From contig NC_089453.1 in NCBI RefSeq assembly GCF_026210795.1, forward strand, positions 436,501-500,500: 64,000 nucleotides of DNA, in the 5' to 3' direction. Positions within the stretch are counted from its first letter, which is position 1, and the number at the start of each line of letters is the position of its first letter. This document shows positions 4,547 to 62,985 of this stretch, in pieces. Position numbers and translations under genes: made by a program. The notes under the pieces were generated by a model. That model ran no database searches, was not told the origin of the DNA, and saw only the letters and a program-made list of their open reading frames with translations. Source of the DNA: Rhizophagus irregularis (Eukaryota; Glomeromycota; Glomeromycetes; Glomerales; Glomeraceae).

Positions 4547-5287
4547 GTATTGTGTTATTACAGCAAATCCGATCACTCCAAAAAATGGTGTAAGAATAAA
4601 AAACCAAATAAACTACTTTTTTTGGATTCATTATGTTAGCCTTTCAATATTTTGGTCTTCTCATTTTTTTTAATTGATTCTTTTTTTTCTTAAAATGGAA
4701 TTTTGGCGTAAAACTTTGTGAATCATTAATGTAAAATGTAAATATGATTGCGTTTGACAAACCTTTATTTCAAAATTGCCTTTTACAGAAAGTTGAAAAA
4801 TCGTAAGGTTTGCATTTCGAAAATTTCGACATAATTTATTTTCTCACCAAAAATGTTTAGTTTTTTTAGAAACAAAGTTTTTAACAAACTTGGCATAGGG
4901 ACAAATAAGATAAGTCAATGAATAAAAAGTATATTATAAAATCCTCCGATATTATTACGAATTTCGAATTTGACATTCATTAAATTTTTTTTAGCGTAAA
5001 AACTTATTATTATTAACATTTGAAATTAGAGAAAATGATAAATTTTTTGGACAAATAAAAAACTGAAAAATCGAAAATGTTATCAAAAAACTTAAATTTC
5101 ATTATAAGATAATTTTATGCTGATCAGGAATACAACTATATTTTTACGTTTTGCATTTTATTATGTTTAATATAAATGGCAAAATTAAATTTTACGAAAA
5201 AAAACAATAAATAACAGAAATCACACATAAAGAAATTTCAAACAAAAAAAAAATTGTATTTACACTATCTTCATTCAAAATTTAAAA
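4547..5287. other. Intergenic, upstream of membrane-protein gene
   Basis: About 740 bp, strongly AT-rich, with no conserved coding signal on either strand. It should contain the promoter of the gene starting at 5288. Confidence 0.5.
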
Positions 5288-6441
5288 ATGTCATCAAATG
5301 ATACTCCATATAATCCAGCTGAAGAAACAATTAATTCAATTCTCACTGGATTACTTCCAGTATTGATATTTGGTCTGTTTAATGGTTTTGAAGATGATAA
5401 AAAAAAGATAATATCCATGATAAATATATTTGATGATTTTGTCATATTTGCGTCTATTACCATATACCCTTTGATCACAGCATTTGAATGGTATCAATAT
5501 TATACTAAGTCTAACAAAATAATGGTTATTAGAATTTACATCATTGCAGCAATATTTGGAATAATTTCATACAGCTTTTTCTTGTTTATTCGATACAAAA
5601 GCAAAATAATTGGAGTTAAAGAAAATGAAAACAACGAACAAAAAAACGAAGAAAAGAAAAAAAAATAGAAGAGGAAAGAAATGATGAAACAAGTATAAGT
5701 CTTGATGAAGCAAATGAAAATAAAGATAATGAGAGAGAAAACAATGAAGATGGGAGGAAAATAAAACATATACTAGTTAATGAAATTTTAGTTTGTTTCT
5801 TCTTTATAATACTAACCATTATACCAGTTTTTGGGTATACCACCTTCGTCAAAGGTGATCTTGAGGATAATGGTGTTTCAAACGTTGACATTAAATACGT
5901 AAGTAATTATTGCACAAAAATCTTTGGAGTTAACAAATGCAACAGTTTGAGGATAGCAAATATCATAGTATATGTTTGTAGTATCGGATTACACATTTTA
6001 CAGCTGATTTATATCTGTTATAAAGCAAGATTATACAAACTACACAAACGTGAAAATAAAATTTTGAGATGGTTCACAAGTATTTTAAAACATATCAATA
6101 TAATTACATTAATTGTTTATCCAGCTATTATATCGGGATATTTAATTAGCACCAACCTTATTACTACAAAAATAGCCTTTGGAATTTGTACTATATCTTT
6201 TACTAGATTAGTTAACCATTTTAATGAAAAACCTGAAAAAGTCAATACATTAATCTCTTTTTATCTGAATAGCAATAATACCAATAATTATACAGCTAAA
6301 GAACAAATAGAAAAGGATATTGAAGATTTAACAAAAAAGTTAAATGACAAAATAGGCGAATTGAAAGAACTAAAAAAGGGTGATGGAAGAACAAAGGACG
6401 AAAAAGAATATATTCTCAATATACTGAATAGTCTTTTATAA
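5288..6441 (+). CDS. Polytopic membrane protein of unknown function, frame break at A9 run
   Basis: Frame from ATG 5288 encodes about 126 aa with three hydrophobic segments (near ILTGLLPVLIFGLF, FVIFASITIYPLI, IIAAIFGIISYSFF), ending at TAG 5666. A second frame, open from 5620 to TAA 6441, continues without interruption into an acidic linker, three or four more membrane segments (VCFFFIILTIIPVF, IIVYVCSIGLHIL, IITLIVYPAIISGYLI) and a C-terminal coiled coil (EKDIEDLTKKLNDK). The frames overlap in a lysine-rich stretch with a nine-A run (5657-5665); one more A would give a single 384-aa, roughly seven-span protein. So this is a homopolymer error, a recent null allele, or -1 slippage. No family recognised; not obviously a known transporter or receptor. 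Confidence 0.6.
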
Positions 6442-7125: not shown

Positions 7126-10100
7126 TTATGTATTTATGCTAAATTCCTTTCGGGTAAAATTTTTATTAGAGATATGTAGTTCTGATTCATCATTAGTACT
7201 TTGAGGGGCCGTAACATCGTCTTGTTTGTTTGATGATTGAAGACCCTCGTTTGTTTTTGTGATGATCGCTTTTAACCAATCAACTACTTGATTTATGGTT
7301 GGGCGATTTTCTGGTTCACCATCCCAACATTCTAAAAAAATAAATAAATAAATATAATAAATAATATTTAAATAATTAAATTTAAAATTTGCTTACTTGT
7401 ATAAATATTTTCATAATTTTCAGGTGTACCGGGAACAACGGTTTCTCTAAGACCTTGTGAAATTTCACGAATTAAACCAATATCATATCGTTCACCTTCA
7501 ACATAAAAGGGAGGTTGTCCATTAGAAATTTCCCATAATAATACGCCAACACTGTAAACATCACTTTTTTCATTTAATGAATACATTTGTGTTGATTGAT
7601 TATTGTTGTTTCTCCGTCTGATAAAGATTTTTGGATCAATATAAGGAGCTATCCCAAATATTTCACCTTGAAGATTGGATAATGTTCCAATCTTTTTTGA
7701 CAATCCAAAATCTGCTAATTTAATCCCTTTTTGATGGACTAATACATTTCCGGAGTGCTATTAAAAAAAATATATTAAATAAGTAATTTATTCTTTAACA
7801 GTTAAAGTAATAAAATGCTATTAATAACTAAATAACGTATCTTACCAAATCACAATGCACAATTTCTTTACTATGTAAGCATGATACACCACGAGCTAAC
7901 TGGTATGCTAAATTGTATTTATCATCCCACGTAAGATTACTAAAATTATTCTTCAAATAGCTTCGAAGATTACCACCATCCGCGTACTCCATTACTAACA
8001 TATAATTTTTATTATTATGATTTTCTAAAGAATGACCTGATTCAGATTTTGTTATTCCAAAAAAACGAATAATATTATTATGAAAATCAACTTTAAGTAA
8101 AATTTTTAACTAAATAAATAGATTCAAATTTTTAAAATAAATATAATATACTAAAAAATAATAGACTAAAAGAATATATATAGATATATAGATATCACCT
8201 CATTAATAATTTCTTCCTTAGATGTATTGTTAAGTTTAAAAGATTTCAACGCGAATTGTTGCTCTGAATTTTTCAAATTTGCACGGAAAACTGTTCCAAA
8301 ACCTCCAGTACCAACTTGTCGAATATCACTAAATTGTTTATAATCATAATATTGTAAATATTCTTCTTCAATAGCTTTTTCAATCCAATCGATCCGTTCA
8401 TTTGTATTTTCGTTAGTCTGGCTTTCAAAATTATCTGGCACATTTGTTTTTAACCAATCAACTACTTGATATATGGTTGGACGATTATCCGGTTCACCGT
8501 CCCAACATTCTAAGAAAAATATATATATAATTTAAGATTAATTAATATTTATTTATTTAAAGCTTAAAATTTAACTTACTAGTATAAAGATTTACATAAT
8601 CTTCGGGTGTACCAGTAACAGGCGTTTCTCTAAAGCCTTGTGAAATTTCCAGTGCTAATCCAATATCATATTCTTCATCTTCAACATAAAAAGGACGTTG
8701 TCCACTAGATATTTCCCATAATAATACGCCGATACTGTAAATATCGCTCTTTTCATTTAATGAGTATCTTTTATTTTCCAACTTTTTTGGATCAATATAA
8801 GGAAGCAATCCAAATACTCTGGATTGGGAATTGGATGACGTTTCAATTCTTTTTGATAATCCCAAATCTGCCAATTTGATCGTGTTTTGATGGACTAATA
8901 CATTGTCTGAGTGCTATTAAAAATGTATATATTAAAGTAAATGCAAATATAACATTACTATTAAAATGATTAAATAATAATAAATAATTACCAAGTCATT
9001 ATGGACAATTCCTTCATTATGTAAGCATGATACACCACAAGCTAACTGGTATGCTAAATTGTATTTATCATCCCACGTAAGGTTACTAAAATTATTCTTC
9101 AAATAGCTTCGAAGATTACCACCATCCGCGTACTCCATTACTAACATATAATTTTTATTATTATGATTTTCTAAAGAATGACCTGATTCAAATTTTGTTA
9201 TTCCAAAAAAACGAATAATATTATTATGAAAATCAACTTTAAGTAAAATTTTTAACTAAATAAATAGATTCAAATTTTTAAAATAAATATAATATACTAA
9301 AAAATAATAGACTAAAAGAATATATATAGATATCACCTCATTAATAATTTCTTCCTTAGATGTATTGTTAAGTTTAAAAGATTTCAACGCGAATTGTTGC
9401 TCTGAATTTTTCAAATTTGCACGGAAAACTGTTCCAAAACCTCCAGTACCAACTTGTCGAATATCACTAAATTGTTTATAATCATAATATTGTAAATATT
9501 CTTCTTCAATAGCTTTTTCAATCCAATCGATCCGTTCATTTGTATTTTCGTTAGTCTGGCTTTCAAAATTATCTGGCACATTTGTTTTTAACCAATCAAC
9601 TACTTGATATATGGTTGGACGATTATCCGGTTCACCGTCCCAACATTCTAAGAAAAATATATATATAATTTAAGATTAATTAATATTTATTTATTTAAAG
9701 CTTAAAATTTAACTTACTAGTATAAAGATTTACATAATCTTCGGGTGTACCAGTAACAGGCGTTTCTCTAAAGCCTTGTGAAATTTCCAGTACTAATCCA
9801 ATATCATATTCTTCATCTTCAACATAAAAAGGACGTTGTCCACTAGATATTTCCCATAATAATACGCCGATACTGTAAATATCGCTCTTTTCATTTAATG
9901 AATACATTTGTGTTGATTGATTATTATTGTTTCTTCTTCCCCTGATAAATCTTTTTGGATCAACATAAGGAATCACTCCAAATAATTTGGATTGGAAATG
10001 GGATGATGTTCCAATTCTTTTTGATAATCCAAAATCTGCCAATTTGATCGTGTTTTGATGGACTAATACATTGCACGAGTGCTATTAAAAATGTATATAT

Positions 10101-10785
10101 TAAAGTAAATGCAAATATAACATTACTATTAAAATGATTAAATAATAATAAATAATTACCAAGTCATTATGGACAATTCCTTCATTATGTAAGCATGATA
10201 CACCACAAGCTAACTGGTACGCCAAATTGTATTTATTATTCCAAGTAAGATCAGTAAAACTTTTCTTCAAATAGTTTCTAAGAGTACCACCGTCTGCATA
10301 TTCAATTACTAACATATAGTTCATACGATTTTCTAAAGAACAAAAGAAATAAATATTAAATTGAATTTGAATATTACAATAAATTTGTTATCATTAAATA
10401 ATATTCATAATACCTGACTTAAATTTTGATATTCCATGGAAGCGAATAATATTATTACTATAATCTGCATCTCGTTGTAATTTAATCTAAATTATGTAAA
10501 TTTGAATATTAAATATTACAATAAAGAGTAAAAGTTATAGAAATATTGAAAATGCATTACGTATTTCATAATTACCTCACGAACAATTTCTTTCACGGTG
10601 TTGCTTTCAGGATTAATAAAAGATTTTAACGCTAAATGTTCAAAATTTTTCCACTTTGCACGGTACACTTTTCCGAAACCTCCGCTACCAATTTGTTGAA
10701 TGTCATTAAATTGATTGTATTCATAATATTTTAAATGTTCTTTAACAATAGCTTCTTCGATCCAATTAATCCATTCATTTGCCAT
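7126..10785 (-). CDS. Tandem triple protein kinase (three TKL-like domains in one protein)
   Basis: Eleven exons, minus strand: 10576-10785, 10414-10486, 10160-10332, 9718-10081, 9337-9647, 8992-9255, 8580-8913, 8199-8509, 7846-8109, 7397-7757, 7126-7331; all junction phases agree, giving about 956 aa. Only the first domain has an ATG (10785). Domains 2 and 3 start inside exons that run in frame from the preceding domain's ECWDGEP-NRPTI-VVDWLK end, so the domains are fused. Domain 1 (about 20-295): GSGGFG, ALK, HNDL..N, DFG. Domain 2 (about 328-598): GTGGFG, ALK, HNDL..N, DLG instead of DFG. Domain 3 (about 632-910): GTGGFG, ALK, HCDL..N, DFG. All three keep the ATP lysine, catalytic Asp and metal-binding Asn/Asp, so none is an obvious pseudokinase. 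Style matches the expanded tyrosine-kinase-like families of Glomeromycotina. Substrates unknown; no signal peptide or membrane segment. Confidence 0.85.
7900..10220. repeat. Tandem ~1.14-kb intragenic duplication
   Basis: About 7900-9050 and 9045-10220 are head-to-tail copies covering one kinase module each, introns included. Introns and exons 8110-8585 and 9256-9725 are almost base-for-base identical apart from an 8-9 bp indel in a TATAGA tract, and the intron at 8914-8991 matches that at 10082-10159. Near-identity in introns means the duplication is recent or kept alike by gene conversion. Confidence 0.85.
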
Positions 10786-11611: not shown

Positions 11612-12419
11612 TCACATATTAGAGTTCCATTTAAATGCAATTCGAGCATTTTTAATAGATTCATCCAATTTTTCAGAATTATCCATCAATTCTTGAATAT
11701 TATCAGGAACGGGCACATTTAAACCTTTTTGAACAGCAGGTCTTGCACCAATACGTGCAACCCAAGCTTTTAAATTTGGAAATTCATCGATACTTTCTAT
11801 ACCGGAAAGGAAATGAACTCTGACCCACGAGAAATTTATAGCATCCGCTAAAGTAAATTTGTTTCCTACCAAATATTCTTTACTTTCCAAAGCACCATTC
11901 AAAACGGAGTAAAGTCTTTTGGTTTCATCGGTATATCGTTTAATGGCGTATGGAATTTTTTCTGGTCCGTACCTATTAAAGAATCCAGCTTGTCCTTGCA
12001 TAGGCCCAAGACCTCCCATTTGAAACATAATCTATTTATTTTATAGTTATGAAAATTAATTTTTTAATTCATCAATTTATTTTATTGCGTAAAAAAAAAA
12101 AGATATTTACCCATTGAATAACTTGACTTTTTAGATTGGGATCTTTTGGCAATAATTTTCCTTCGGGATCATAATGTTCACAAAGATAGATCATAATCGC
12201 GCCACTTTCAAATACATGAAAATCTCCTCTACTATGATCAGTAATAGCAGGAATTCTGCCATTCGGATTGATTTTTAAAAACCAAGGCTGTTTATGTTCA
12301 TCATCTTTAATAGAAATTTCTCTTGCTTTATAAGGAATTCCTAATTCTTCAAGGACGATGCTTACTTTTACCCCATTAGGAGACTTAGCAGTGTAAAAAG
12401 TGATATCAGGAGTAGTCAT
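11612..12419 (-). CDS. Ure2-like glutathione S-transferase, copy 3
   Basis: Exons 12111-12419 and 11612-12031, joined TGG|ATT in phase 0, giving 242 aa. N-terminal half has ITFYTAKSPNGVKVSI, FLKINPNGRIPAI and VFESGAIMIYL, the Ure2p-like glutathione site. C-terminal half has MFQMGGLGPMQGQ, EYLVGNKFTLADAINF and PNLKAWVARI. Compared with copies 1 and 2 it carries the PNG (not QNG) loop and the MGGLGPMQGQ linker usual for this class, so copies 3-5 form a second subgroup. The C terminus ends early (RIAFKWNSNM) and lacks the STDEK tail of copies 4 and 5. Cytosolic detoxification enzyme by family; substrate unknown. Confidence 0.92.
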
Positions 12420-13253
12420 TTTTTTGTTTTAATTATTAAATCTTAATTATTCATTCGTCAAAAAAAATAAAAGTAAAAAAAAAATGTGATGATATTTATA
12501 ATTTTTTTTCAAAAAATGAGGAGTGCAGTAAAGCAATTATCAATTTTTGATCTCCTAAGAGTTCCTTAAATTATTTCTCTTTCTCCTATTTTGGGCCATA
12601 AGGTAGTCATTGTTAATACTTAACATATTTTAGAATTAGTATTGGCTACATCTCGTTACTATTCAAATATTTAGGGTAATAGAGTAATTGGATTTTTATA
12701 ATTCTAGATTCATTACATTTATCTTATTAAAAGGATTTGAATGATAATTTTGTATTTGTGAAATCAATATTTGTCATATAACTGATAATTACACTTTAGA
12801 TATTCTCCATCTTTTAGATTTAAACAAATGGTAGTAAATTCACAATAATCCAATAAAAAAGTATTTATACTTATTATCTATTTAAAATATACTTGATTTT
12901 CTTATTTTATACTTAAAATATACTAAAGTTAAATTTGCACAAATTATAATTAATACATACTTAATTATATTTAATTTTTCCATTTCAGTATATTTTTATA
13001 TGTTTTAAGTATAAAATAAAATTTAAGTATATTTTAAATATATTTTAATAAAAATACTTTTTATAGGGATATTGATCAAATTATGATAAACTAATATTTC
13101 CAAAAAATTCTGAAATGATACGAAGCAATTGAAATATGGAAAATTTGTTTATTGTAATTATCAATACAAAATTATATTTTTTTTATATACATATCAACAT
13201 GCAAAAAAAAGTGGCCGGGTAATTTCGGCCTCCCTCTGTATATACAGTATAAC
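12420..13253. other. Intergenic between GST copies 3 and 4
   Basis: Promoter of copy 3, one inverted-repeat element (12848-13070), and the 3' flank of copy 4. No additional gene seen. Confidence 0.5.
12848..13070. mobile_element. TTAAGTATA-rich palindromic MITE-like element
   Basis: About 220 bp whose two halves are inverted copies: ATCC(A/C)(A/T)(A)TAAAAAAGTATT on the left and the complement of AATACTTTTTATAGGGAT on the right, with internal TTTAAAATATACTT boxes mirrored. No coding capacity. Related TTAAGTATA-type palindromes lie at 17253-17367 and 30104-30337. Confidence 0.55.
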
Positions 13254-14071
13254 CTATTTCTCATCTGTTGAGTTCCATTTAAATATACTTCGAACATGTT
13301 TAATAAATTCATCCAATATTTCAGGATTATCCATCAATTCTTGAAGTTTATCAGGAACGGGTACATTTAAACCTTTTTGAACAGCAGGTCTTGCACTAAT
13401 ACGTGCAACCCAAGCTTTTAAATTTGGAAATTCATCGATACTTTCTATTCCAGAAAAAGCATGTGCTCTGACCCACGGGAAACTTATAGCATCCGCTAAA
13501 GTAAATTTGTTTCCTACCAAATATTCTTTACCTTCCAGAGCACTATTCAAAACGGAACAAAGTCTTATGGTTTCATCAGTATATCGTTTAATAGCGTATG
13601 GAATTTTTTCTGGTGCGTACCTATTGAAGTGTATAGCTTGTCCTTGCATAGGCCCAAGACCTCCCATTTGAAACATAACCTATTTATTTTATAGTTATGA
13701 AAATTAATTTTTTAATTCATCAATTTATTTTTATTGCATAAAAAAAAGAAGATATTATTTACCCATTGAATAACTTGACTTCTTAAATCAGGATCTTTTG
13801 GCAATAATTTTCCTTCGGGATCATAATGTTCACAAAGATAGATCATAATCGCGCCACTTTCAAATACGTGAAAATTTCCTCTACTATGATCAGTAATAGC
13901 AGGAACTTTGGCATTCGGATTGATTTTTAAAAACCAAGGCTGTTTTTGTTCTTCATCTTTAAAAGAAAGTTCTCTTACTTTATAAGGAATTTCTAATTCT
14001 TCAAGGACGATGCTTACTTTTATCGCATTAGGAGTTACAGCAGTGTAAAAAGTGATATCAGGAGTAGTCAT
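13254..14071 (-). CDS. Ure2-like glutathione S-transferase, copy 4 (variant glutathione loops)
   Basis: Exons 13763-14071 and 13254-13679 joined in phase 0, giving 244 aa. Domain layout is as in copy 3, with MFQMGGLGPMQGQ, EYLVGNKFTLADAISFP and PNLKAWVARI. It departs from all its neighbours at two glutathione-site positions: the PNG loop is PNA (TPNAIKVSI) and the INPNG loop before cis-Pro is INPNA (INPNAKVPAI). Both are Gly to Ala beside the Asn/cis-Pro residues that contact glutathione in Ure2p-like and nu-class enzymes, so altered substrate use is plausible. The gene is otherwise intact. Confidence 0.9.
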
Positions 14072-14399
14072 TTTTTTTTGTTCTAATTATTAATATTCTA
14101 ATTGGCTAATCTTAATTATTTTTTCATTACAAAAAAGTAAAATTCAAAAAAGAATGGGATAATATTTATTCAAAAAATGATGAGTAATTAATTTTTTTTT
14201 GATTTGTAATAATTTCAAATCATCAGAAAACGAGATAAACAATCATCAATTTTTGGGACGATCTTCATAACGGAACTGGCGAATGTAGGATAATTAATGA
14301 CGTCAAGGTTTAATCTAAAATTTGAACTATCAAAGTAGGAAAAGATATCTCAAGAAAATTTCACATTCTAACATAAAAAGAGTAAGGAGGAATTTTTTC

Positions 14400-16078: not shown

Positions 16079-16896
16079 CTATTTTTCATCTGTTGATTTC
16101 CACTTAAATGAATTTTGAGCATTTTTAACGAACTCATCCAATTTTTCAGGATTATCAAGAATTTCTTGAAATTTGTCAGGAGTGGGTACATTTAAACCTT
16201 TTTGAACAGCAGGTCTTGCACTAATACGTGCAACCCAAGCTTTTAAATTTGGAAATTCATCGATACTTGATACACCGGAAAGGAAATGAACTCTGACCCA
16301 CGGAAAACTTATAGCATCCGCTAAAGTATATTTGTTTCCTACCAAATATTCTTTACCTTCCAGAGCACCATTTAAAACGGAGTAAAGTCTTTTGGTTTCA
16401 TCGGTATATCGTTTAATGGCGTATGGAATTTTTTCTGGTGCGTACCTATTAAAGTGTCCAGCTTGTCCTTGCATAGGTCCAAGACCTCCCATTTGGAACA
16501 TAATCTATTTATTTTATAGTTATGAAAATTAATATTTTAATTCATCAATTTATTTTTATTGCATAAAAAAAAGAAGATATTATTTACCCATTGAATAACT
16601 TGACTTCTTAAATCAGGATCTTTTGGCAATAATTTTCCTTCGGGATCATAATGCTCACAAAGATAGATCATAATTGCAGCACTTTCAAATACATGAAAAT
16701 CTCCTCTACTATGATCGGTAATAGCAGGAATTCTGCCATTTGGATTGATTTTTAAAAACCAAGGCTGTTTTTGTTCTTCATCTTTAAAAGAAATTTCTCT
16801 TGCTTTGTAAGAAATTCCTAATTCTTCAAGGACGATGCTTATTTTTACCCCATTAGGAGTTCCAACAGTGTAAAGGGTAATATCAGGAGTAGTCAT
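16079..16896 (-). CDS. Ure2-like glutathione S-transferase, copy 5
   Basis: Exons 16588-16896 and 16079-16504, joined TGG|ATT in phase 0, giving 244 aa. Shows ITLYTVGTPNGVKISI, FLKINPNGRIPAI, VFESAAIMIYL, then MFQMGGLGPMQGQ, EYLVGNKYTLADAISFP and PNLKAWVARI, all the expected Ure2p-like features with unmodified PNG and INPNG loops. Intron and promoter sequence are nearly the same as copy 4, so these two are the most recent pair in the right-hand group. Cytosolic glutathione-dependent enzyme by family; regulation unknown. Confidence 0.92.
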
Positions 16897-17252
16897 TTTT
16901 TTGTAATTATTAATCTTAATTATTATTTCGTTAGAAAAAAAATCAAAAAAAGAATGATAATATTTATAATTTTTTCAAAAATTGATGAGTAATTAATTTT
17001 TTTGATTTGTAATAATTTCATATATCATTAGAAAAAAAAGAAAAAATTAAGGTAAACAAATAAACTATCAATTTTTGGGGTGATCTACATAAATAATTTA
17101 ACGAATTAATATAAAGTATTCAATGTATAATAATGTCCGCAAGTCATTAGATAAATAAGAACCCTTGATGCTCTCTTTGATTAATAATATATAGAACTGA
17201 TTCGTTTTTTAATAATCAGGATTTCTTCTATGAATAAATAAATGTATATGCA

Positions 17253-51238: not shown

Positions 51239-54200
51239 ATGTCGTCTTTTGGAAGATTTACTTCTACAACGAGTAGCTCTCCTTTTGGTACCGGTTCTAC
51301 AGCTAGTCCTTTTGGGCAATCCACCACAACAGGCTTTGGGAATTTTCCAGGTAGGTTGATCGATCATTTCCGGGTTTTTGTGGCGTTTTAGTTTAGCGCA
51401 GACAGCGCAGACAGAGATCTCGTGTCCAAGATCTTTTGCTAGTAGTCTCAGTAAGTTATGCATTTTTTTTTAGCAACAACTGCCCCAGGATTTGGTGGTA
51501 GCTTTGGTTTCGGTGCGCAATCTTCAACCGCAACAAGACCTCAGTTTGGCTTTGGAGGTTTTGGTCAAACAACACAACCAGCTGCTGGTGGTTTTGGTTT
51601 TGGTCAGGCAACACAACCAGCTGCTGGTGGTTTTGGCTTTGGTCAGACAACACAGCCTGCTGCTGGTGGATTTGGCTTTGGTCAGACAACACAGCCAGCT
51701 GCTGGTGGATTTGGCTTTGGTCAGTCAACACAACCAGCTGCTGGTGGATTTGGATTCGGACAGTCAACACAACCAGCTGCCGGTGGATTTGGATTTGGTC
51801 AAACTACTACAACACAACCGACTGGATTTGGATTCAATACGTCAAGGCCTAGTGGATTTGGATTCGGACAAACCTCACAACCAACAGGATTTGGATTTGG
51901 ACAGTCGACACAACCAGCTGCCGGTGGATTTGGGTTTGGACAATCAACACAACCAGCTGCTGGTGGTTTTGGATTTGGTCAAACGACACAACCGGCTGCC
52001 GGTGGTTTTGGATTTGGTCAAACGACACAACCAGCTGCTGGTGGTTTTGGATTCGGCGCAACAAGGCCTAGTGGTTTTGGATTTGGACAAACGACACAAC
52101 CAGCAGCTGGCGGATTCGGATTTGGTCAAGCTACTACAACACAATCGACTGGATTTGGATTCGGTACAACAAAGCCTAGTGGTTTTGGATTTGGGCAGTC
52201 GACACAACCAGCTGCTGGTGGATTTGGATTTGGTCAAACTACTACATCACAATCGACTGGTTTTGGATTTGGACAGTCATCGCAACCAGCCGCCGGTGGA
52301 TTTGGATTTGGTCAAACTACTACAACACAACCGACTGGTTTTGGATTTGGTCAGTCGACACAACCAGCCGCTGGCGGATTTGGATTTGGACAAACTGCTA
52401 CAACACAACCGGCAGCTGGTGGTTTTGGATTCGGTACAACAAAACCTGGTGGTTTTGGATTTAGTGGTTTTGGACAGTCAACCCAACCAACTGCTGGTGG
52501 ATTTGGATTTGGTCAAACGACACAGCCAGCTGCTGGTGGATTTGGATTTGGTCAAACCGCTACAACACAACCGGCTGCTGGTGGTTTTGGATTTGGTGCA
52601 ACAAGGCCTAGTGGTTTTGGATTTAGTCAAACGACACAACCAGCTGCTGGTGGATTTGGATTTGGTCAAACCGCTACAACACAACCGGCTGCTGGTGGTT
52701 TTGGATTCGGTACAACAAAACCTGGTTTTGGTTTTGGACATTCGACACAACCAACCGCTGGTGGATTTGCTTTTGGACAAACTACACAACCAGCAGGATT
52801 TGGATCTTCAGTAGGTGGCTTTGGTTTTGGATCTTCACAACCTGGCGGTGGCTTTGGTTTTGGATCTTCACAACCTGGTGGTGGCTTTGGCTTTGGACAA
52901 TCATCACAACCCAGTATGTTTAGCTTCGGCCAAACTTCACAATCAACTGCAGCGCCTCAATTGAATCTTGGTGGTGGCGCCTTTGGATTTTCAACTCAGC
53001 CGGGAACTTCGATTGGTATACAACTTTGAATACTTTCGTTATATAAATTTTTTTATAAGCTATTACTTTAATAATCTTATTATGTTAGTTCCAGCCTTTG
53101 GTATTGGTACTGGCACTAGTACTATGCAGCCGACTAGTTTAGTCACAACACAACCAAGTAAGGATTATATTTAACCTTCAACTAGTAATAATTTATATAA
53201 ATTTTTGTTTCGGATGACAATACCTAATGGTATCACAGGTCAACAATTACAACAACATCGGACACCCGTTCAAGAACTACATGAATTGATGAATTCTTGG
53301 AATACGTACAGCCCCCAGTGTCAGTTTATTGTAAGTACATTTAATTACAATATGTGATTTGCTCGCTTTTATCGTATGTAAATAATTCTAATTGTATTAT
53401 GATCTTTGTCAGACTTATTTCTTCAATTTATCAAATCCTGGTTCAGTGCAGTATTTCCAACCGCAACAGCAACAACGTTGGACACAGGAACTTTGGGAAG
53501 AAGCACAAAAAAATAATCCAGATAAAACGATGTAAGTAATAATATTGGTGTGAGATATATTATAATTATGGTGCAAATTATATTTATATTAAAATATGAC
53601 TATTATTAGAATGATGCCAATTGTTGCTGTTGGGTTCGAAGACTTAAAAAAGAGGATTATAGAGCATTTAAACGGTAAAAATGAAATTTCTGCAAAATTA
53701 AAGGTACATTTAATTTAATAACTATTATTCTTTTTCCGAGATTTATTTATATTGAAAGTATCATTATAGGATATCGGAAATAAAATAGAGACATTGCAAA
53801 TTAAACATAACTTAGAAACCTCCGTAAATTTGGAAAATCAAAAACGGAAGCATATGGAATTGACGCAACGAGTTATTAAGGTTTGTGAATTAAGTTTAGT
53901 AAAATATTTAAAAGGTCTAATTATTTAATTTATGTTAAATCGATATAGCTTATGAAACGAATTCAAGTAGTACGTCTTAGGGGAACTATGACCCGTTCAG
54001 GTGAAGAGCAACTCAAAGGACGTTTAGAGGAAATCAAACAAAATTTGTTAAGGCCAATGGTTAGACTTGACCATATCAAGACACAATATAGTATATTAAA
54101 AATACATTGGGATAATCGTGAACCATCAGTAGCTCATAAATACAACACTGTTGATGCAAATCAATTAGATAATATCGTGAAGGCAAGTATTCGTTATGTA

Positions 54201-61382: not shown

Positions 61383-61714
61383 TATTATACTTAACTATAT
61401 TTATATAGCTATATAACTGCCTGACTGTATATACGTAAAGTTTTTGTAAGAAAATAACAAGTAGTTTATTTTGTTTTTTTAGTCTCAGTTAGTCCTCTAA
61501 TGTACTTTTGTTAGTTTTGTATATAAAGCTCCGCATGAGCCTTGAACTTGAGAACCACAGTCTGGCTCGGCTCAGCTTCGAAAAAAAAATTCTGGCCTGA
61601 AGCAGAATAAGCCGAAAGTCATCAAAATTTCGAAATTTCCAAGTAAATGAAATTTGCGTGAGCCATGATTTTCATATTGGCCTGGCTCCAAGCAAAATCG
61701 ACTTTATCTTCAGA

Positions 61715-62245
61715 AAAATGTTTCGCAACGTTTTTTTATTAAAGAATTAAAAAAAACGTTGCGAAATATTTTTTTCTAAAATAATATTGTGAAAAAAACG
61801 TTTTTGCAACGTTTTTTATTAAAGAACTTAAAAAAATGTTGCGAAACATTTTTTTCTAATATAATATTGTGAAAAAAACGTTTTCGCAACGTTTTTTTAC
61901 TAAAGAATTTAAAAAAATGTTGCGAAAACATTTTTTTCTAAAATAATATAGTGAAAAAAACGTTTTCACAACGTTTTTTTATTAAAGAACTTAAAAAAAC
62001 GTTGCGAAACATTTTTTTCTAAAATAATATAGTGAAAAAAATGTTTTCGCAATGTTTTTTATTAAAGAACTTAAAAAAACGTTGCGAAATGTTTTTTTCT
62101 AATATAATATAGTGAAAAAAACGTTTTTGCAACATTTTTTTATTAAAGAATTTAAAAAAACGTTGCGAAATGTTTTTTCTAATATAATATAGTGAAAAAA
62201 ACGTTTTCGCAACGTTATTTACTAAAGAATTTAAAAAAACAGGAC
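61715..62245. repeat. Palindromic ~81-bp satellite, block 1
   Basis: About six and a half units. Each unit is a hairpin: TTTTCGCAACGTTTTTTT, an ATTAAAGAACTT loop, then AAAAAAACGTTGCGAAA, joined by TTTTTTCTAATATAATATAG. CpG to TpG/CpA differences distinguish units. Confidence 0.8.
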
Positions 62246-62504: not shown

Positions 62505-62985
62505 TCTAAAAAATGTTGCGAAACGTTTTTTTCCAATATAATATAGTGAAAAAAACGTTTTCGCAACATTTTTTTATTAAAGAACTTAAAAAAATGTTGC
62601 GAAACATTTTTTTCTAATATAATATAGTGAAAAAAACATTTTCGCAACGTTTTTTTATTAAAGAACTTAAAAAAATGTTGTGAAACGTTTTTTTCTAATA
62701 TTAGATAGTGAAAAAAACGTTTTCGCAACATTTTTTTACTAAAGAATTTAAAAAAATGTTGCGAAACGTTTTTTTCTAAAATAATATAGTGAAAAAAATG
62801 TTTTCGCAACGTTTTTTACTAAAGAATTAAAAAAATGTTGTGAAACGTTTTTTTCCAATATAATATAGTAAAAAAAACATTTTCGCAACATTTTTTTATT
62901 AAAGAATTAAAAAAAAAAATTGCGAAACGTTTTTTTAATATAATATTATACAAAAAATGTTTTCGCAATGTTTTTTGTATGATAA
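62505..62985. repeat. Palindromic ~81-bp satellite, block 2
   Basis: About six more units of the same repeat, after a 260-bp non-repeat spacer (62246-62504). The 27-codon period makes long minus-strand open frames that are by-products. Confidence 0.8.

Follow-up and report, generated by a model that had tools for sequence, protein, structure and literature searches.

The kinase gene and its surroundings

A gene predicted to encode a protein with three kinase domains lies on the minus strand of the window, a 64,000-nt stretch of Rhizophagus irregularis DNA with a G+C content of 29%. This low value and the intron-rich genes fit an arbuscular mycorrhizal fungus. The kinase gene extends from 10785 to 7126 in 11 exons, the boundaries of which were set by reading the sequence and not by a gene predictor. 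The introns are of 65-89 nt each, 10 of 10 run from GT to AG, and their phases agree. Once spliced, the gene is an uninterrupted frame of 2871 nt (956 amino acids plus the stop codon). It is flanked by glutathione S-transferase-like genes, all of them also on the minus strand (17-412, 1848-2675, 11612-12428, 13254-14086, and 16079-16974). Four exon frames from two of these genes match GST_N or GST_C in Pfam, and the others were judged from their translations. On the plus strand, 5231-6441 holds two overlapping stop-to-stop frames of 145 and 270 amino acids, in different frames and hydrophobic by eye; neither has a Pfam match at E 0.001. Elsewhere in the window, a long coding repeat of the GFGFGQ type (51455-53029, plus strand) looks FG-nucleoporin-like by eye, and 61714-62240 and 62508-62976 are tandem arrays of an 80-81-bp repeat, with 6.6 and 5.8 copies and AACGTTTTCGCAACGTT-type cores.

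Domain 1 begins in exon 1 (10576..10785), which carries the start codon and the sequence from the glycine loop to the alpha-C glutamate, and continues through exon 2 (10414..10486) and exon 3 (10160..10332). Its catalytic-loop asparagine, activation segment and C-lobe are in exon 4 (9718..10081). Exon 5 (9337..9647; 311 nt) then contains the end of domain 1, a linker and the start of domain 2. Domain 2 occupies exon 6 (8992..9255) and exon 7 (8580..8913), the latter with the catalytic-loop asparagine, activation segment and C-lobe, and exon 8 (8199..8509) repeats the arrangement of exon 5 by containing the end of domain 2, a linker and the start of domain 3. Domain 3 fills exon 9 (7846..8109) and exon 10 (7397..7757) and ends in exon 11 (7126..7331), together with a C-terminal tail and the stop codon. 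Exons 5 and 8 are of equal length, and there are zero differences between them in the lists of module differences.

How the domains are joined is clear from these two exons. In both (9647-9337 and 8509-8199) CWDGEPDNRPT..VVDWLK is followed in frame by IEKAI..GTGGFG. Both linkers are therefore within exons, and no stop codon separates the modules. In-frame methionines are found at residues 1, 98, 101, 211, 414, 417, 717, 720, and 826, but neither domain 2 (from residue 311) nor domain 3 (from residue 614) begins with one. The original prediction had been of one gene with eleven exons of agreeing phase, and splicing reproduces this, down to the gene ends and the coordinates of the linker exons. 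It had also described those exons as joining the domains in frame and the downstream domains as having no ATG of their own, both of which are confirmed, by the spliced sequence and by the list of methionines respectively. Its central claim, that one gene encodes three complete kinase domains, is borne out by the 956-residue frame and by three stretches of Pfam similarity (see below). As read from the DNA, one open and spliceable frame encodes three kinase domains.

Domain identity and known multi-kinase proteins

The domains belong to the protein kinase superfamily. PF07714 matches the spliced protein in three stretches (E 1.2e-138; 461.1 bits against a curated cut-off of 23.1), as does PF00069 (E 1.7e-137; 457.5 bits against a cut-off of 31.7). 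At E 0.001 all 8 of the Pfam families found are kinase-type, and no family beyond these was found in the protein. The three domains all retain the glycine loop, the ALK lysine, the alpha-C glutamate, the catalytic aspartate and asparagine, and the DFG aspartate, and the alpha-F aspartate and NRPT are also present in each. These motifs were located with patterns that we wrote from the kinase consensus, and their placement in domains 1 and 2 agrees with PDB alignments.

Kinases in which an arginine precedes the catalytic aspartate (HRD) are known as RD kinases, and most kinases have an APE motif. None of the three domains has the arginine, the corresponding residues being HND, HND, and HCD in domains 1, 2, and 3, and DPK replaces APE throughout. 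Domain 2 also has DLG instead of DFG. The absence of the HRD arginine and the replacement of APE therefore make these non-RD kinases that are likely, but not certainly, active. The original prediction spoke of apparently competent TKL-like domains. The retained catalytic residues and a TK/TKL-like character agree with this description, but it left out the missing arginine of all three domains.

The class of the domains can be resolved as far as TK/TKL-like. When the kinase profile, domain 1 and domain 2 were used as queries, the best 60 of more than 2500 PDB sequence matches were a mixture of tyrosine and TKL kinases. An EGFR chain, a Src-Abl ancestor, CTR1, and a 1173-residue chain described as a tyrosine-protein kinase were among the best 60 for all three queries, LIMK1 was among them for the profile and domain 1, and B-Raf for domain 1. 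Between domains 1 and 3, dS is 0.54 and dN 0.20 over 305 codons. The resulting dN/dS of 0.37 is in the range that translated sequence should show, and indicates that selection has maintained both domains as protein.

The 1173-residue chain (PDB 7t6f), which we take to be JAK1, matches with two stretches, again among the best 60 of more than 2500, and JAK1 chains are also among the best 60 matches of the kinase profile. Janus kinases consist of FERM and SH2 parts followed by a tandem pseudokinase and kinase. The presence of two kinase folds on one chain resembles the tandem layout seen here. However, Pfam finds kinase-type families alone in the Rhizophagus protein, whereas Janus kinases include FERM and SH2 parts as well as a pseudokinase.

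Plants offer another parallel in layout, since tandem kinase proteins formed through duplication or fusion have been described there as a group (PMC6170490, PMC11153570, in the portions available). Of the 92 listed in one of these sources, 52 were ascribed to duplication and none was given other conserved domains (PMC6170490, available text). The same text classes KinI of WTK1/Yr15 as non-RD, and the two kinase domains of Pm57 have likewise been ascribed to duplication (PMC11153570, available text). WTK1/Yr15 and Pm57 have tandem kinase domains on one chain, as does the protein described here. However, they are kinase-pseudokinase pairs in which one domain lacks catalytic residues, whereas here there are three domains and the catalytic residues are kept in all of them; the DLG of domain 2 is a departure of another kind. 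Proteins with more domains are also on record in plants. The accessible parts of two kinome surveys count 74 soybean genes whose products have two or three kinase domains (PMC4378628), and 54 grapevine proteins with two and 2 with three, the printed identifiers of the last two being identical (PMC5878832). Some of these proteins thus reach the three domains seen here, but they are plant proteins and the origin of the third domain is not given in those parts of the surveys (PMC4378628, PMC5878832).

In Rhizophagus irregularis itself, PF07714 is reported as the most frequent motif in the inflated gene set, and expanded families occur occasionally in tandem arrays of duplicate genes (PMC6123716, PMC8647823, in the portions available). 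The expanded kinases thus belong to the same Pfam family as this gene. However, the available text of those papers does not mention several kinase domains per protein (PMC6123716, PMC8647823), and the duplication described here is intragenic. Another survey, as far as its available text goes, covered a range of fungi and reported homologues of MLKL-type kinases that carry Sel1 repeats from Glomeromycotina alone. Searches of open-licence papers brought up no three-kinase protein from Rhizophagus or from arbuscular mycorrhizal fungi; this is weak evidence of absence, since the original genome papers are outside that scope. Because both tandem kinases and three-kinase proteins are on record in plants, the arrangement is not new in kind. 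The gene is an unusual member of a large and well-known kinase superfamily and not a new kind of system.

A hybrid middle domain

What sets the gene apart is the relationship between its domains. When the three modules are aligned and compared in blocks of 60 columns, the first half of module 2 is almost identical to module 3, introns included. Its second half is almost identical to module 1, once again introns included, with the exception of one patch (discussed below). The change takes place at a 12-bp core, TACCAGTTAGCT (9040..9051, minus strand, within exon 6), which is identical in all three modules. Informative sites were defined as ungapped sites where the middle module matches one neighbour but not the other. 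Upstream of the core, modules 2 and 3 agree at 125 of 126 such sites and modules 1 and 2 at the remaining one. Downstream of it, modules 1 and 2 agree at 109 of 109 and modules 2 and 3 at none. These counts exclude the patch and one site in each part where the middle module alone differs. The contrast has a Fisher p of 7e-68, a value that is descriptive rather than a test because the sites are linked. At the level of the sequence, then, the middle domain is a hybrid, the 5' part of which matches the last domain and the 3' part the first.

The same relationship can be expressed as a duplicated segment. If the breakpoint is placed at 9046, inside the core, the first copy (9047..10214; 1168 nt) comprises the 3' part of domain 1, the linker and the 5' part of domain 2, and the second (7901..9046; 1146 nt) comprises the 3' part of domain 2, the linker and the 5' part of domain 3, both on the minus strand. 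Over the approximately 1000 columns compared outside of the patch, the copies differ by three substitutions (9792, 9191, and 9082 in first-copy coordinates) and one 8-bp intron indel, and the longest identical run is 458. Correspondingly low values of dS were obtained for the 5' part of domains 2 and 3 (0.013) and for domains 1 and 2 after the patch (0.017), compared with 0.54 for domains 1 and 3. By this measure the extra domain arose far more recently than the pair formed by domains 1 and 3. On this reading of the alignment the middle domain is a recent recombinant, so the three domains have not diverged independently, a point that the original prediction did not recognise.

The patch is the one stretch that does not fit. 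It lies within exon 7 (8764..8908, minus strand) and covers domain 2 from its catalytic loop through its activation segment. Compared with domain 1 in the three-module alignment, it has 22 substitutions, and 30 nt are missing from it; in a two-copy alignment, in which the gaps are placed differently, there are 24 substitutions. Yet the intron before it is identical to its counterpart in domain 1, and downstream of it exon 7 has just one further difference. At the protein level, the patch has HSDN for HSCN, the DLG for DFG already mentioned, and 10 residues fewer than domain 1. From 8913 to 8751, 41 of 163 ungapped sites vary. At 12 of the 41 the middle module is private, at 6 all three modules differ, at 19 modules 1 and 2 agree, and at 4 modules 2 and 3 agree. 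The balance of 19 to 4 suggests a donor more like domain 1 than domain 3.

Where might such a sequence have come from? Within the window, blastn of the patch returns the patch itself and its counterparts in modules 1 and 3, everything else being at E 0.028 or worse. A tblastn search of the window with the three domains gives four rows outside of the gene, at E 0.43 or worse. The sequence might have come from a close paralogue by conversion, or the crossover might itself have introduced a divergent allele. Over the patch, dN/dS between domains 1 and 2 is 1.52 (49 codons) as opposed to 0.27 between domains 1 and 3. However, positive selection is not claimed, because the higher estimate rests on 3.5 synonymous changes.

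Origin of the third domain and its possible consequences

A middle copy that is last-like at its 5' end and first-like at its 3' end, with the junction exon repeated, is the pattern that unequal crossing-over produces, and it is found here except in the patch. We therefore favour, with a probability of roughly 0.7, a recent unequal crossover in a two-kinase ancestor as the origin of the three-kinase gene. The older ancestor would have had the order domain 1, linker, domain 3. Mispairing with its own copy, so that domain 3 was aligned on domain 1, and a single crossover within 9051-9040 would then have generated domain 1, linker, domain 3/1 hybrid, linker, domain 3. The reciprocal product would be a one-kinase gene. 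This origin needs a second event for the patch. Perhaps the middle activation segment was overwritten by domain-1-like sequence from outside of the window, either later or already in one parental allele.

Collections of viral, bacterial, and archaeal sequences were scanned for relatives, and blanks in these say little about fungi. A protein alignment query gave 126 pattern matches in viral contigs and 28 in genome contigs, none of which was confirmed in either case. A DNA pattern gave none in genome or viral contigs, and a further protein query gave 7 in viral contigs, with none confirmed. No relative showing a two-kinase ancestor was therefore seen in those collections. As to the linker, one proposal was that it is the former 5' UTR of domain 3. 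Comparing the 66 nt that end with ATGGCA of domain 1 with the 45-nt linker gave a local score of 21, which was reached in 153 of 1000 dinucleotide shuffles, and the proposal was dropped.

Other explanations for a hybrid middle domain must be weighed. What if the third domain is a product of the assembly? A two-kinase locus, or its two alleles or paralogues, might have been falsely joined into a three-kinase array. A false overlap join would also yield a hybrid, the repeated copies hardly differ over a length of more than 1.1 kb, and PF07714-family kinases are high in copy number in Rhizophagus (PMC6123716, PMC8647823, in the portions available). However, joining identical copies would not create the 8-bp intron indel between them, nor a patch with 30 nt missing, 12 of 41 variable sites private and 6 more differing from two unlike neighbours. 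Joining two different alleles could do so. On balance we regard an artefact as unlikely. Gene conversion alone is improbable for a different reason. An old three-domain gene in which the middle domain was overwritten from the domain 3 side and the domain 1 side should likewise show a hybrid there, and conversion may occur at the locus, to judge from the patch. However, two long tracts from two donors would have to meet within one 12-bp core and would also have to include the introns and both linkers, all of which is covered by one unequal crossover.

The remaining alternative concerns expression and is compatible with a crossover origin. Each module, being a self-contained kinase domain, might have a start or end site of its own and be transcribed separately. 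Between the modules there are AATAAA words (9695, 9691, 8557, and 8553) and TATA-type words (9667-9663 and 8529-8525). However, these words are in introns of an A+T-rich window, and the counts come without a shuffle control. AATAAA is also present inside the modules (10237, 9159, 8775, 8013, and 7792) and past the stop codon (7084 and 7027). Together with the exonic linkers and the lack of a stop codon or in-frame ATG between modules, this makes separate transcripts very improbable.

If an unequal crossover did produce the gene, what would the protein gain from it? The product would probably be a cytoplasmic, non-RD, TK/TKL-like kinase. Tethering near-equivalent domains would raise their local concentration and might let one act on another, or several on the same partners, in cis, by phosphorylation between domains or repeated docking. 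The original prediction had likewise proposed mutual phosphorylation or a signal-receiving platform. In our view the recency of the middle domain means that what the extra unit contributed at first was dose or avidity. It would thus add these together with an altered activation segment, and not a new activity, and that segment would be the likeliest place for domain 2 to diverge in regulation or substrate. As a whole, this scheme is tentative, its odds being somewhat short of even. A recent hybrid also implies that the present number of domains may be of recent date and possibly variable. This leads to the idea of an "accordion" kinase, in which domain number is a recent and still changing copy-number trait (1, 2, 3 or more among nuclei, isolates, or alleles), activation segments are swapped with relatives by conversion, and new multi-kinase signalling proteins emerge from recombination within one gene. 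We consider so broad a generalization doubtful. The locus, if real, is a multi-kinase protein caught soon after the gain of a domain, with a breakpoint that can be read to 12 bp. It would be a natural test of the effect of an added kinase domain, and a direct reason to ask whether, in fungi of the arbuscular-mycorrhizal type, variation among the high-copy kinases arises inside single genes as well as between genes.

One other difference between the domains involves an intron. Domain 1 has an 81-nt intron (10413-10333) where domains 2 (9182-9171) and 3 (8036-8025) have a 12-nt in-frame stretch, GTCATTCTTTAG. This stretch begins with GT, ends like the domain 1 intron (TTCTTTAG) and is translated as GHSL. 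The domain 1 intron would introduce in-frame stops if it were retained. The stretch looks like an intron that has shrunk to a translated remnant, or else the domain 1 intron has grown from coding sequence.
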